Shown here: positions 43,301-47,075 of the stretch, in pieces
Layout of the letters: the number at the start of each line of letters is the position of its first letter
Numbering within the stretch: the first letter of the stretch is position 1
NCBI GenBank assembly: GCA_020055645.1
Contig: CM034546.1
Span: 134,251,875-134,315,874, forward strand
Direction: 5' to 3'
Length of the DNA stretch: 64,000 bases
Origin: Tomocerus qinae
Taxonomy: Eukaryota; Arthropoda; Collembola; Entomobryomorpha; Tomoceridae
Notes under the pieces: generated by a model
What the model saw: only the letters and a program-made list of their open reading frames with translations
Databases searched by the model: none
Told to the model about the DNA's origin: nothing
Position numbers and translations under genes: made by a program

Positions 43301-46300
43301 AATTTAATAAGGGAAATACTGATGATTTTTTGGGAATTGTTTTTATTACTGTGATTGGTGGCCTGCTGAATTTTTCTTGAGTGCTAGGTTCACTCCTTAG
43401 CTGGGTTCACTAGTAATATACTACATATAATAGACAACTAACCTTTTCTGGCAGCATTAGATACTTTTAAAGCTTTTCGGTAAACAGCAGAGCTAAGCAC
43501 CGTTTTTATCAATGCGCCTATTCTTTCTCTCAAATAGAACTGCCACTCAAAAAGAATCGATTTTGAAACTGTAATAACAGCCATTAAGGCCACGTAGAAA
43601 TATCCCCTCCACACGAAACTCTCATCTCCATCTTCAATGAAATCTATAAGTAAACTAAAACAGGAACACATTTTATAAATTGAAAAACAAATACTCCAAA
43701 AAAGGCAAGCCAACGTAGATTATTTATCACATTAGTATTTTATCACACACTTTAAAGAAATCACCTCAAAATTTGAGGAAGGGAAAAGTTGAGGATTATG
43801 ACGCCCGTTCCGAAAATCGTAGCTAATAAGAACTCTACCCCAAATAAAGCAAACAATGGTTTAATGATATTCTTGTAAATGCTCGATGGTGCAGGATTCC
43901 CAGATTCCCTCTTTGAATATTTTTCAAAATCAGTAATGAGAAGCTCTGCTTTTTGGCAACGATGGAGACCCCACAAATCCGAATACTCCAATGTCTTCTT
44001 GTAACCTCGCGACATTAATTTTCCAACCCAACTGAAAAATAACCGAGATGGAAACGAGGATTTCAAGTCTGGAAAAATGTTGCTGTCCTGAGAACAAAAT
44101 TCAAAATCAAGGTTATGTTTGTAAACGGTTGAACAATAAAGATTCCAGGTTGTTTAGATTTACTTCTTTAATTTTTGGACTTTGCTTCTCATTGTCCAAG
44201 GAATCTGAAAAAAAGTTGAGGAATAATTGCAAAAATACTAGAGTGCTACAGGTCACTGTCAAAACAAAAGGCAAGGGAGTTTCCACGATTTTTACAGCTG
44301 TCCGAAGTATCACTGCCTCATAAATAGATAGCAGTAACCAGAAGACAAATTGAGTCCCAGATGAATGCAAACCTCTGGCTCTTTGAGCCACCTGGAGGCA
44401 TATCGCAAGTGCCTGAAATAGAACATTTTTAAAATTTACATATCTGGGCAGATAATCATTCCAATTATATTCACAAACCTTGTTAACAGTACATTTCAAT
44501 CAATTTTAAGAAATTTGGATTATGTTTCTGACATTCGCTCCAGAAATGTTTAGTACAATGTCTAATAGAAATCCATAAATTGATTTAGGGGACTTTCAAG
44601 CACCCCTGCCAATTTCTGCAGGACATGCTAGAAAGTCCCCGGGGACTATCTAGCACCCTTTTAAATGTTTCCAAAAGTTCCCGAAGGACGACTGCTAGAC
44701 ATTCTGCCATCCAATAAAAATATATAAATAAGCAAAATATCTATAAAATAACCCATAAATATATAAAACAGCCAAAAAATAACTAAAATAGCCAAAAATA
44801 TATAAAATAGCCCATTAATATATAAAACTAGAAATAAGCCCGTCCTACGGACCGGGAATACTTATCGAATCAGTTGCTCGTGGTCGAGGAATGGGACGTG
44901 GCCTTAGTGAACCAGTAGTCGTCAAACGGGGAGAAGAGGGAAGAAGGTAAGTCTTTACACCTACATTTGTTTGTATGTACAAGTATAAAATATATCTAAA
45001 GAAAAGAATTGAAAAATTATTGAACATTATTTTTTTATGTTTGGATTTTTATAGAGTCATCATGACTATCACGTTAACTAGTTTGGTATTATTGATAATT
45101 GCTATTTTTACATTGTCAGGGCTGGAATAGATAGATAATAAGTGTGAAATATGGTATTTTTTGAAATGATTAATATATATGCTTTTTACTTAACATTTCA
45201 GAACAGCTTTTGCAACCAATTTTATTGGTCTAAAAATGGAGCCTGGAAAGGGCATGATTGAGTATCACGTTGGATTCGTACCGGCGTTGAAAGTCTGCAC
45301 TTCCGGAAAATAGCAATCCGTGAACTTAAGACAATTTTGGGATCTGTGTGGACGTTCATGTGACGTTCACATCGGGATCTCCAGGGTGGGCAACACTTAC
45401 TTCGGTTCGCCGAAACGAATATTCGTTTCGGCGAACCGAGGTAAGTGTTGCCCACCCTGGAGATCCCGATGTGAACGTCAAATGAACATCCACACAGATC
45501 CCAAAATTGTCTTAAGTTCACGGATTGCTATTTTCCGGAAGTGCAGACTTTCAACGTCTGGTACGAATCCAACGTGATACTCAATCATGCCCTTTCCAGG
45601 CTCCATTTTTAGACCAATAAAATTGGTTGCAAAAGCTGTTCTGAAATGTTACGTAAAAAGCATAATTATTAATCATTCAAAAAATACCATATTTCACACT
45701 TATTATCTATCTATTCCAGCCCTGACAATGTAAAAATAGCAATTATCAATAATACCAAACTAGTTAACGTGATAGTCATGATGACTCTATAAAAATCCAA
45801 ACATAAAAAAATAATGTTCAATAATTTTTCAATTCTTTTCTTTAGATATATTTTATACTTGTACATACAAACAAATGTAGGTGTAAAGACTTACCTTCTT
45901 CCCTCTTCTCCCCGTTTGACGACTACTGGTTCACTAAGGCCACGTCCCATTCCTCGACCACGAGCAACTGATTCGATAAGTATTCCCGGTCCGTAGGACG
46001 GGATTATTTCTAGTTTCATATATTAATGGGCTATTTTATATATTTTTTGGCTATTTTATACATTTTTTGGCTATTTTATACATTGTTTTGGCTATTTTAT
46101 ATATTTTTGACTATTTTATATATTTTTGGCTATTTTATATATTTTTGGCTATATATATTTTTGGCTATATATATTTTTGGCTATTTCATATATTTTTTGG
46201 CTATTTTATATATTTTTTGGCTATTTTATATATTTTTTTGCTATTTTATATATTTTTGGCTATTTTATATATTTTTTGGCTATTTTATATATTTTTTGGC

Positions 46301-47075
46301 TATTTTATATTATTTTTGGCTATTTTTTTATATTTTTTGGTTATCTTATATATTTATGTTTTATTTTATAGATATTTTGCTTGTTTTATATATTTTTTTT
46401 AAATGGCAGAATGTCTAGCATTTGTACTTCGGGATCTTTTGGAAAAATTTAAAAGGGTACTAGACAGTCCCCGGGGACTTTCTAGCATGTGCTACAGAAA
46501 TTGGCAGGGGTGCTAGAAAGTCCCCTAGATCATAAATTGGTAATAAAAAAGATTTAGACCATATATTTTAATCGGACAAGAACCGTTTTTCCTTACCAGA
46601 CTAGAAATCTTGACTATTTGAGAATAATAGTAAACGGGATAGATGACAGAACCTCTGAATTGTCCAAAAATCGAATAGGCAACTTCCGCTACAATTAGTG
46701 TGACGACTCCAATTATTTTGATAATATTCAGCCATGACCTTGACGTTTGTTTTGAAGGGCTGATGTTGATAGACAGCTTATAAATTTCAAAAATAAACGA
46801 GAGCCATAAAAAGAGACACGGAATGCCCAAAACGACGGTATTTTCAAAGCATGGCGTGAAATCAGGATCGGTGGTATTCCAAGTTGTGTTCCAGTCCTGC
46901 TCATTTCAGAAATTGATATATATTAAAATGATATATTATATTATTGTTCATAGTTTTAAAAATATTGGAATCGATCATGCATTGTCGTTGAAGTGACGTG
47001 TTTATTTATTTATGTAATAATAATTTAATTAAACTAGTTACTTACCCAAAATTCAGAGCCACAAAACTTTTCCAT
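37388..47075 (-). CDS. ABC transporter, ABCC subfamily (MRP1-like), copy A
   Basis: Eighteen exons: 47075-47046, 46896-46597, 44412-44164, 44087-43765, 43654-43443, 42525-42098, 42006-41128, 40883-40577, 40434-40088, 40001-39912, 39838-39639, 39539-39404, 39320-39231, 39148-38985, 38913-38769, 38695-38529, 38431-38237, 37514-37388. Phases close to 1462 residues. The start [10 protein letters not shown] then [20 protein letters not shown] is the extracellular N-terminus of MRP1-type long ABCCs, followed by TMD0, so it is a full TMD0-TMD1-NBD1-TMD2-NBD2 pump. NBD1: Walker A GVVGCGKS (626-633), LSGGQ (716-720), Walker B LYLFDD. NBD2: GRTGAGKS (1252-1259), LSVGQ (1355-1359), Walker B ILVLDE, so both sites look functional. 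The family exports glutathione and other conjugates at the plasma membrane. Intron 2 holds a 1.95-kb palindrome. It is divergent from copy B. Confidence 0.93.
37705..38077. mobile_element. Long-TIR MITE in last intron of ABCC copy A
   Basis: Inverted ends run about 80 bp, starting AAGGGTGGTTAACAGCGGGG and continuing past tagagtatagcccg. The right arm has TAACTACCCTT. The whole is 373 bp without ORF. The target duplication is unclear (aactt-like text on both sides). Absent from the matching intron of copy B. Confidence 0.75.
42526..43442. other. Intron 5 of ABCC copy A, with shared repeat block
   Basis: About 42830-43420 is homologous (same orientation relative to the gene) to 53640-54430, which is in intron 6 of copy B. 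Landmarks are the tract around agtgaacccagctaag, caggccac, and ccaatttggatt. ORFs at 42982-43263 belong to this block and are not genes. Confidence 0.6.
44840..45350 (+). pseudogene. PIWI-type Argonaute N-terminal fragment, left arm (frameshifted)
   Basis: Two exon-like parts, up to 44946 (donor AAG|GTAAGT) and from 45202 (acceptor TTTCAG). The first encodes the RG-rich [10 protein letters not shown] leader and [13 protein letters not shown]. The second encodes [20 protein letters not shown], then YHVGFVP. N-x-x-x-L followed by a YHV/YEV strand and F.P opens the N domain of PIWI-clade Argonautes. After F.P this arm lost one base relative to the other arm (CCGGCG against CCAGACG), which puts a TAG in frame. 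There is no start codon in this arm. It does not encode a slicer (no PAZ, MID or PIWI domain). Confidence 0.75.
45478..46019 (-). pseudogene. PIWI-type Argonaute N-terminal fragment, right arm (frame intact)
   Basis: Minus-strand exons 46019-45895 and 45640-45478 join in phase to a 95-residue ORF from ATG to TGA. It contains the RG-rich leader, [23 protein letters not shown] and then [10 protein letters not shown]. This matches the order seen in PIWI proteins just before the FDG motif, where the palindrome centre cuts the gene. It is a mirror copy of 44840-45350. The RG motifs are the kind methylated and bound by Tudor proteins in functional PIWIs. The fragment alone cannot bind a guide RNA. 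It is antisense to nothing in this window, so any target would be a full PIWI gene elsewhere. Confidence 0.75.
46023..46400. repeat. AT minisatellite in the right arm of the palindrome
   Basis: About 18 copies of a 16-20-bp unit such as tatttttggctattttata. The left arm has only about five copies (44716-44830). The overlapping hydrophobic Phe/Tyr/Leu ORFs at 46026-46418 in all three frames are artefacts of this repeat. Confidence 0.9.

Follow-up and report, generated by a model that had tools for sequence, protein, structure and literature searches.

A PIWI-carrying, spacer-free palindrome in a MULE/Foldback-like transposon of the collembolan Tomocerus qinae

Anatomy of the element

We analyzed a 64,000-nucleotide stretch of Tomocerus qinae DNA (assembly GCA_020055645.1, contig CM034546.1, positions 134,251,875 to 134,315,874, forward strand), hereafter the window, in whose numbering positions are given unless another contig is named. 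Positions 44583-46530 hold a complete, non-autonomous MULE/Foldback-like element of 1,948 bp, which (i) bears the termini ATYTAGGGGACTTTC at both ends, (ii) is flanked by a perfect 9-bp target-site duplication (TSD), CATAAATTG, at 44574-44582 and 46531-46539 (9/9 identical), and (iii) carries 548 bp of a host PIWI gene in two head-to-head copies. The first-pass annotation of this DNA had described a mobile palindrome made of two mirror copies of a PIWI gene start, placed within an intron of an ABC transporter gene. Mobility is borne out, with the unit now corrected to a transposon that has terminal inverted repeats (TIRs) and 9-bp TSDs.

From the outside inward, the left TIR, a family-specific end (44583-44715, plus strand), pairs with the right TIR (46399-46530, minus strand) at 119 of 133 positions. 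Repeat analysis identified an A/T-rich minisatellite of ~20 bp next to the left TIR (44716-44827, about 5.7 copies) and a ~20-bp minisatellite next to the right one (46014-46398, about 19.8 copies). Transposon-internal sequence then follows at 44828-44872 (plus strand), and arm alignment places its second copy at 45969-46013 (minus strand). The capture junction falls at 44872|44873; the 30 bp before it (44843-44872) are common to the window element and to L014, a PIWI-less element at C1:73814233-73815896, and the two sequences part after CGAATCA.

The left arm begins with PIWI exon pieces (44873-44946, plus strand), in which, as aligned with L013, an RG-rich exon piece is joined to a piece of the next exon, with ~414 bp of the gene deleted at the joint. 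An intron (44947-45201, GTAAGT...TTTCAG) and an N-domain exon (45202-45357) come next, both on the plus strand, and the exon is cut at its FDG codon. The last 63 bp before the centre (45358-45420, minus strand) are the start of the following PIWI exon and run opposite to the remainder of the arm, and ~190 bp of the gene (FDG onwards plus most of an intron) are skipped. This piece is mirrored by the centre piece of the right arm (45421-45483, plus strand), which lies in gene sense, covers an intron end and an exon start, and includes an exact 36-nt match to the predicted PIWI mRNA. The remainder of the right arm (45484-45968, minus strand) carries the exon, intron, and leader pieces in inverted order.

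The two arms meet without any spacer at 45420|45421, in agreement with the perfect centre claimed at first pass; the centre sequence is a natural AATATT, of which all 6 nt match the gene intron. Arm against arm, 823 of 852 aligned columns (96.6%) are identical, and the gene part (44873-45420) aligns with its counterpart through 540 matches, 7 mismatches, and 2 gap columns. The earlier description of the arm content holds for the leader, the intron, and the N-domain exon up to FDG, and needs revision for the inner 63 bp, which are inverted. Likewise, the leader is RG-rich as stated, albeit fused to the next exon piece by the deletion. The left arm has a frameshift near 45283, and the N-domain exon frame of the right arm is open.

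The parental PIWI gene

The genome search for a full PIWI gene that the first-pass annotation had proposed led to an intact PIWI-subfamily model at C3:5168001-5178000, on the minus strand. This model, built by hand, is divided into 15 exons, has GT and AG at every internal border, and reads open for 965 residues up to a stop codon. In its product, Piwi, PAZ, and ArgoL1 domains score higher than their curated cut-offs, whereas a Piwi_N match falls short (22 bits, with a cut-off of 27); the nearest solved structures are PIWI proteins. Because this full-length gene holds the exons, the intron, and the splice sites found in the element, the PIWI identity of the two mirror copies is settled. Of the PIWI gene, the element itself has leader and N-domain pieces only, and an intact frame with PAZ and Piwi domains is found in the C3 gene and not in the element.

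Overall, the arms are 86.8-87.8% identical to the C3 gene, and their exon pieces are 89-94% identical to it. By segment, identities amount to 33/37 for the small exon piece, 229/247 (left) and 230/247 (right) for the intron, 140/156 (left) and 142/157 (right) for the N-domain exon, and 63/67 for the centre piece. The captured exon differs from the gene with a proportion of nonsynonymous differences (pN) of 0.062 and of synonymous differences (pS) of 0.216, values which derive from 15 differences, too few to tell whether a coding paralog or the element was the site of the divergence.

The first-pass annotation had made its PIWI reading depend on a profile match. Pfam gave no family for the short PIWI pieces of the arms, but a search of structure sequences (E up to 10) with a hand-spliced arm peptide of 75 residues returned 10 matches, all of them PIWI, with Drosophila Piwi (6kr6, E=1.8e-4) as the best, so that this search and the parental gene together support the reading. 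A shorter arm peptide (53 residues) matched structure sequences weakly, with SNF2 in first place (E 0.17) and Piwi in second (E 0.31). When the genome was searched at the protein level, no closer source of PIWI emerged; apart from the C3 gene and the element copies, there were five N-domain matches, at 36-46% identity. None of the 30 loci fetched by a Piwi-domain search (of 153 matches) matched the element at the DNA level. Viral contigs, when searched, yielded two weak matches, L080 and L081 (57-61% over 23-26 residues).

The 153 Piwi-domain matches in the genome include other arrangements. Fifteen fetched loci, representing 14 separate places (L032 and L039-L052), belong to one dispersed Piwi-domain family at C3:18.5-37.2 Mb and at C1:127.9 and 129.3 Mb, the listed pairs of which are about 81-97% alike over 1.2-2.8 kb, flanks included. 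Many of these matches contain stops, some of which may be explained by introns. At C1:45.55-46.32 Mb, Piwi-domain matches are densely arrayed on both strands.

Transposon family and other PIWI-carrying copies

The end motif ATCTAGGGGACTTTCTAGCA, allowing at most one mismatch, occurs 159 times in the 334-Mb genome, and a reversed-pattern control occurs 0 times. We scanned 27 loci for TSDs, namely the window and 26 loci picked from 116 genome matches to the element (a lower bound, as is the number of PIWI-carrying regions given below). Seventeen of the 27 possess a complete pair of ends and 10 possess none. Flanking 9-mers matched at eight or more positions in 12 of the 17 complete copies (11 of them at 9/9), compared with 1 of 272 mispaired flanks. 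A further copy of 2,052 bp with a 9/9 duplication (L079), picked from the end-motif matches, raises the total to 13 of 18 at ≥8/9. Fourteen of the 17 complete copies are miniature inverted-repeat transposable elements (MITEs) of 328-441 bp. In tandem with the 9-bp duplication, the composite terminal repeats, made up of 133-bp ends and a ~20-bp minisatellite of unequal copy number, point to MULE/Foldback, as in the Tm1 Mutator/Foldback family of root-knot nematodes, which is likewise reported to have 9-bp TSDs, terminal repeats of composite build that include tandem repeats, and MITE-like members (PMC3169594). Some Tm1 members, in contrast, encode a putative transposase, their cargo is different, and the accessible text of that report describes no PIWI palindrome. 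The transposon terminus is also repeated every ~6.96 kb at C12:363018-383929 and C104:1029-14984, a spacing which implies that it seemingly lies inside a tandemly repeated unit there.

The search for other copies, also suggested at first pass, identified at least three PIWI-carrying regions, namely the window, a palindrome cluster at C1:129.1 Mb, and a one-armed copy at C1:5.14 Mb. In the cluster (C1:129104831-129120821), PIWI arms of both orientations occur at four places, with the arm truncated in three, and no match to the element TIRs was found. It adjoins a 216-bp satellite (C1:129100001-129104830, about 22 copies in the fetched stretch). The most complete place belongs to a palindrome whose arms, 1,244 bp each, are 99.4% alike, and the inverted joint of the window recurs in it. 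Its centre is imperfect, with one arm ending about 38 bp early, and its spacer AAATAATATT matches the gene intron over 10 nt, as compared with 6 nt for the AATATT of the window. These 4 extra bases, on which the comparison turns, suggest that the asymmetric cluster centre may be the older state.

The copy at C1:5141170-5141824 (L012) is a 655-bp element with both ends and one PIWI arm. Arm and end repeat are joined where their sequences resemble each other, at TTGKCAGGGSTG, and this copy is therefore probably a deletion derivative. Its flanks match at 4 of 9 positions and look inverted rather than direct, which leaves its outer border unsure. Mobility of the chimeric element is indicated by the TSD that encloses the PIWI-carrying unit in the window and by this second TIR-bearing carrier, though with a TSD match of 4/9.

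Comparison of the arms bears on their history. Since the window and the cluster have the same inverted joint, both arms should predate the separation of window and cluster. The two window arms nonetheless have four derived substitutions in common that the cluster arms lack, as do the gene and L012 wherever these cover the site; conversely, two substitutions and a TAAA insertion are common to the cluster arms that cover the site. Arm-to-arm gene conversion that has kept the arms alike would be the simplest reading of this pattern. Against such joint evolution, the window arms differ from each other by 9 substitutions, and the cluster shows 14 variable columns, several of which are alignment ambiguity at the centre.

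Hairpin potential, explanations, and genomic surroundings

An RNA covering 44815-46026 (1,212 nt) is predicted to fold with a minimum free energy of -1070.7 kcal/mol and 98% of its bases paired, the longest perfect duplex being 325 bp, which agrees with the long duplex expected at first pass. The sequence thus has two features of hairpin RNA (hpRNA) loci, namely a long inverted repeat able to fold and complementarity of at least 21 nt to a target mRNA. Counting both strands, 35 of the 2,878 21-mers of the predicted PIWI mRNA occur exactly in the element, and exact matches, located at positions 340, 659, 746, and 846 of the predicted mRNA, reach 36 nt. Each arm, in gene sense, matches 19 mRNA 21-mers exactly and 59 with one mismatch, and the left and right arms match 43 and 48, respectively, with two mismatches. 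Of the 548 bp of an arm, however, 255 bp are intron and cannot target the mature mRNA. The genome also contains 18 RNase III domain matches, many in neighboring pairs as in Dicers, and this pairing, read by eye, suggests an expanded set of several Dicers. Paired matches lie at C1:137.0-137.4, 34.3-34.5, and 30.9 Mb and at C4:16.8 and 27.0 Mb.

Drosophila offers a measure for the identity that silencing may demand. PIWI-interacting RNAs (piRNAs) from the AT-chX repeats, which are 76% similar to vasa, are reported to spare vasa within the species, whereas sister-species vasa is >90% complementary to AT-chX, and D. mauritiana vasa is silenced in hybrids (PMC7874207). Set beside these figures, the 89-94% identity of the exon pieces makes silencing of PIWI by the arms possible, as far as similarity goes.

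Several known systems share parts of this arrangement. Gene-capturing TIR elements are established in animals, with 370 host-sequence captures reported from 100 animal genomes, and that study states that it identified no Pack-MULE in its animal reference genomes (PMC8277862). The window element resembles these Pack-TIR and Pack-MULE elements in that a host gene fragment of identifiable parental family (the PIWI gene at C3:5.17 Mb) lies between TIRs; for them, template switching has been proposed and multicopy cases transpose (PMC8277862). It is unlike them in that its cargo is PIWI sequence duplicated in inverted form. The telomeric element TART-A has captured part of the piRNA-pathway gene nxf2 and makes antisense small RNAs, for which repression is proposed (PMC7785250). 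Like the window element, it is a transposon bearing part of a piRNA-pathway gene, but it uses the piRNA route and is documented by small-RNA and degradome data (PMC7785250), whereas the window element is a palindromic DNA transposon with PIWI itself as cargo. In Drosophila simulans, the hp-ODox1 hairpin combines an inverted repeat, an exon piece of the piRNA-pathway gene Tapas, and transposon sequence in its transcript; its antisense small interfering RNAs (siRNAs) have been measured, Tapas mRNA is not selectively raised without Dicer-2, and the accessible text does not describe it as a TIR element (PMC10317233). The cluster at C1:129.1 Mb recalls AT-chX, in which pericentromeric tandem repeats are related to the piRNA-pathway gene vasa, except that AT-chX, at 76% similarity to vasa, is a piRNA cluster (PMC7874207), whereas any transcription of the C1:129.1 Mb cluster would be hypothetical. 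Our literature search, thin on subscription journals, found no report of a PIWI fragment in a palindromic DNA transposon. What would be new, as far as that search reaches, is a DNA transposon whose cargo is a PIWI gene piece arranged as a spacer-free palindrome, gene-capturing transposons and piRNA-gene capture being known.

We consider it probable that a MULE/Foldback-type element captured PIWI DNA, became an inverted duplication, moved, and had its arms converted. In the order that we infer, a non-autonomous element would have taken up genomic PIWI DNA, exons and intron together. The inverted duplication would have arisen most simply by template switching in replication or gap repair, with the copied strand traversing the PIWI piece and, once at the FDG codon, jumping to the opposite strand; later, the arms would have grown inward until they met at the natural AATATT. 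The element would then have inserted into the ABC transporter intron with a 9-bp duplication, related copies lying at C1:129.1 Mb and C1:5.14 Mb, and gene conversion between the arms would have maintained their likeness. If the host intron is transcribed, its RNA would contain the hairpin, the excised RNA would be a long hairpin, and Dicer could cut from it siRNAs matching the PIWI mRNA. Most likely, the element is a mobile passenger whose double-stranded RNA (dsRNA) gives at most weak and incidental PIWI silencing. Even if inactive, it would present base-level stages of palindrome birth inside a transposon, namely the parental gene, a palindrome whose short spacer is asymmetric, one that is perfect and has no spacer, and a copy with a single arm.

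Several observations weigh against this account. Five of the 17 complete copies, the one-armed carrier L012 among them, have no 9-bp duplication at 8/9. The genome contains 59 PF10551 (MULE) matches, yet no autonomous element with ATCTAGGGGACTTTC ends was found, and 10 fetched MULE loci (with about 1.5 kb of flanks) gave no TIR match; by eye, among 100 of the 159 termini, the nearest of the 59 lies ~28 kb from any terminus. The superfamily assignment fits MULE/Foldback indirectly, by TSD and repeat structure. No direct source copy turned up, and the C3 gene is without the ~414-bp deletion. Finally, the outer repeats (119/133) are less alike than the gene part (540/547 aligned), which a single fold-back event with neutral divergence does not fully explain; either conversion was confined to the inner region, or the inner palindrome arose later.

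Four other explanations were weighed. Spacer-free palindromes are a known artefact of long-read assemblies, and a fold-over was named at first pass as one of two results that could undo the finding. Here, the minisatellites are unequal, the outer repeats differ by 14 substitutions, the arms carry substitutions of their own, 9-bp TSDs bound a unit whose two flanks differ, and another locus has the same inverted joint, so that a fold-over is unlikely, indeed scarcely credible. Far more plausible, and just short of probable in our judgment, is a purely neutral history, in which accidents of repair folded a transposon-trapped gene fragment that was never transcribed with any consequence. The frameshift in the left arm, the deletion-like copy at C1:5.14 Mb, the small number of PIWI carriers, and the frequency of host-sequence capture by TIR elements (PMC8277862) speak for it, although the inner arms resemble each other more closely than the outer repeats do and derived mutations are shared, a pattern that passive gene conversion could equally produce.

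Selection may instead have favored elements whose dsRNA lowers PIWI, in which case a DNA transposon family would have made a PIWI piece into a self-complementary, conversion-maintained hairpin, and its siRNAs would set the siRNA pathway to disarm the piRNA pathway. The intact parental gene model, the exact and one-mismatch 21-mers in each arm, the derived mutations common to both arms, the presence of more than one PIWI-carrying locus, the RNase III domain pairs, and the TART-A/nxf2 precedent are in keeping with this. However, at least three carrier regions against 159 family termini imply that PIWI carriers are not the numerous members of the family, the C1:5.14 Mb copy has no second arm, and the intronic 255 bp of each arm are of no use against mature mRNA; we therefore hold both the selection and the resulting disarming to be doubtful. 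Were the hairpin active in this way, a transposon would turn one arm of RNA silencing against the other, and a DNA transposon would achieve through siRNA the effect proposed for TART-A through piRNA. It is rather improbable that the palindromes, above all the satellite-side cluster, would be host loci that adjust PIWI dosage through hpRNA or piRNA: a cluster of palindromes bordering a 216-bp satellite does recall the pericentromeric AT-chX repeats with vasa homology and resembles tandem hpRNA clusters, but one open reading frame (ORF) of ≥90 residues occurs in L009 and none in L010. The tests made do not separate anti-defence, host autoregulation, and neutral hitch-hiking.

The placement of the element in an ABC transporter intron, as claimed at first pass, is supported at the sequence level by ORFs with domain matches to ABC_tran (41092-41916) and ABC_membrane (42071-42550), together 41092-42550 on the minus strand, and by donor- and acceptor-like sites. 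The upstream exon, recognized by translation, is an open stretch at 46594-46905 (minus strand) whose true start is not fixed, and it is followed by a GTAAGG donor and the element-bearing intron; the next exon starts at 44396-44412 (minus strand), behind a TTTCAG acceptor-like site at about 44413. The window contains two ABC transporter genes in inverted orientation (38087-47368 and 50622-61106), pieces of which are 68-95% alike. No match to the element was found in the plus-strand paralogous gene, where the left flank aligns poorly across the insertion point and the precise empty site is unreadable. Elsewhere in the window, a CCTAA (telomere-type) stretch at 62743-63064 has an inverted minisatellite, GGACTTAGCATGGGAC, at its flanks; a short TTAGG-type sequence is in keeping with an arthropod, without being proof of one. 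At 13559-19361, 244-bp direct repeats that are 99.6% alike surround minus-strand retroelement-like ORFs.

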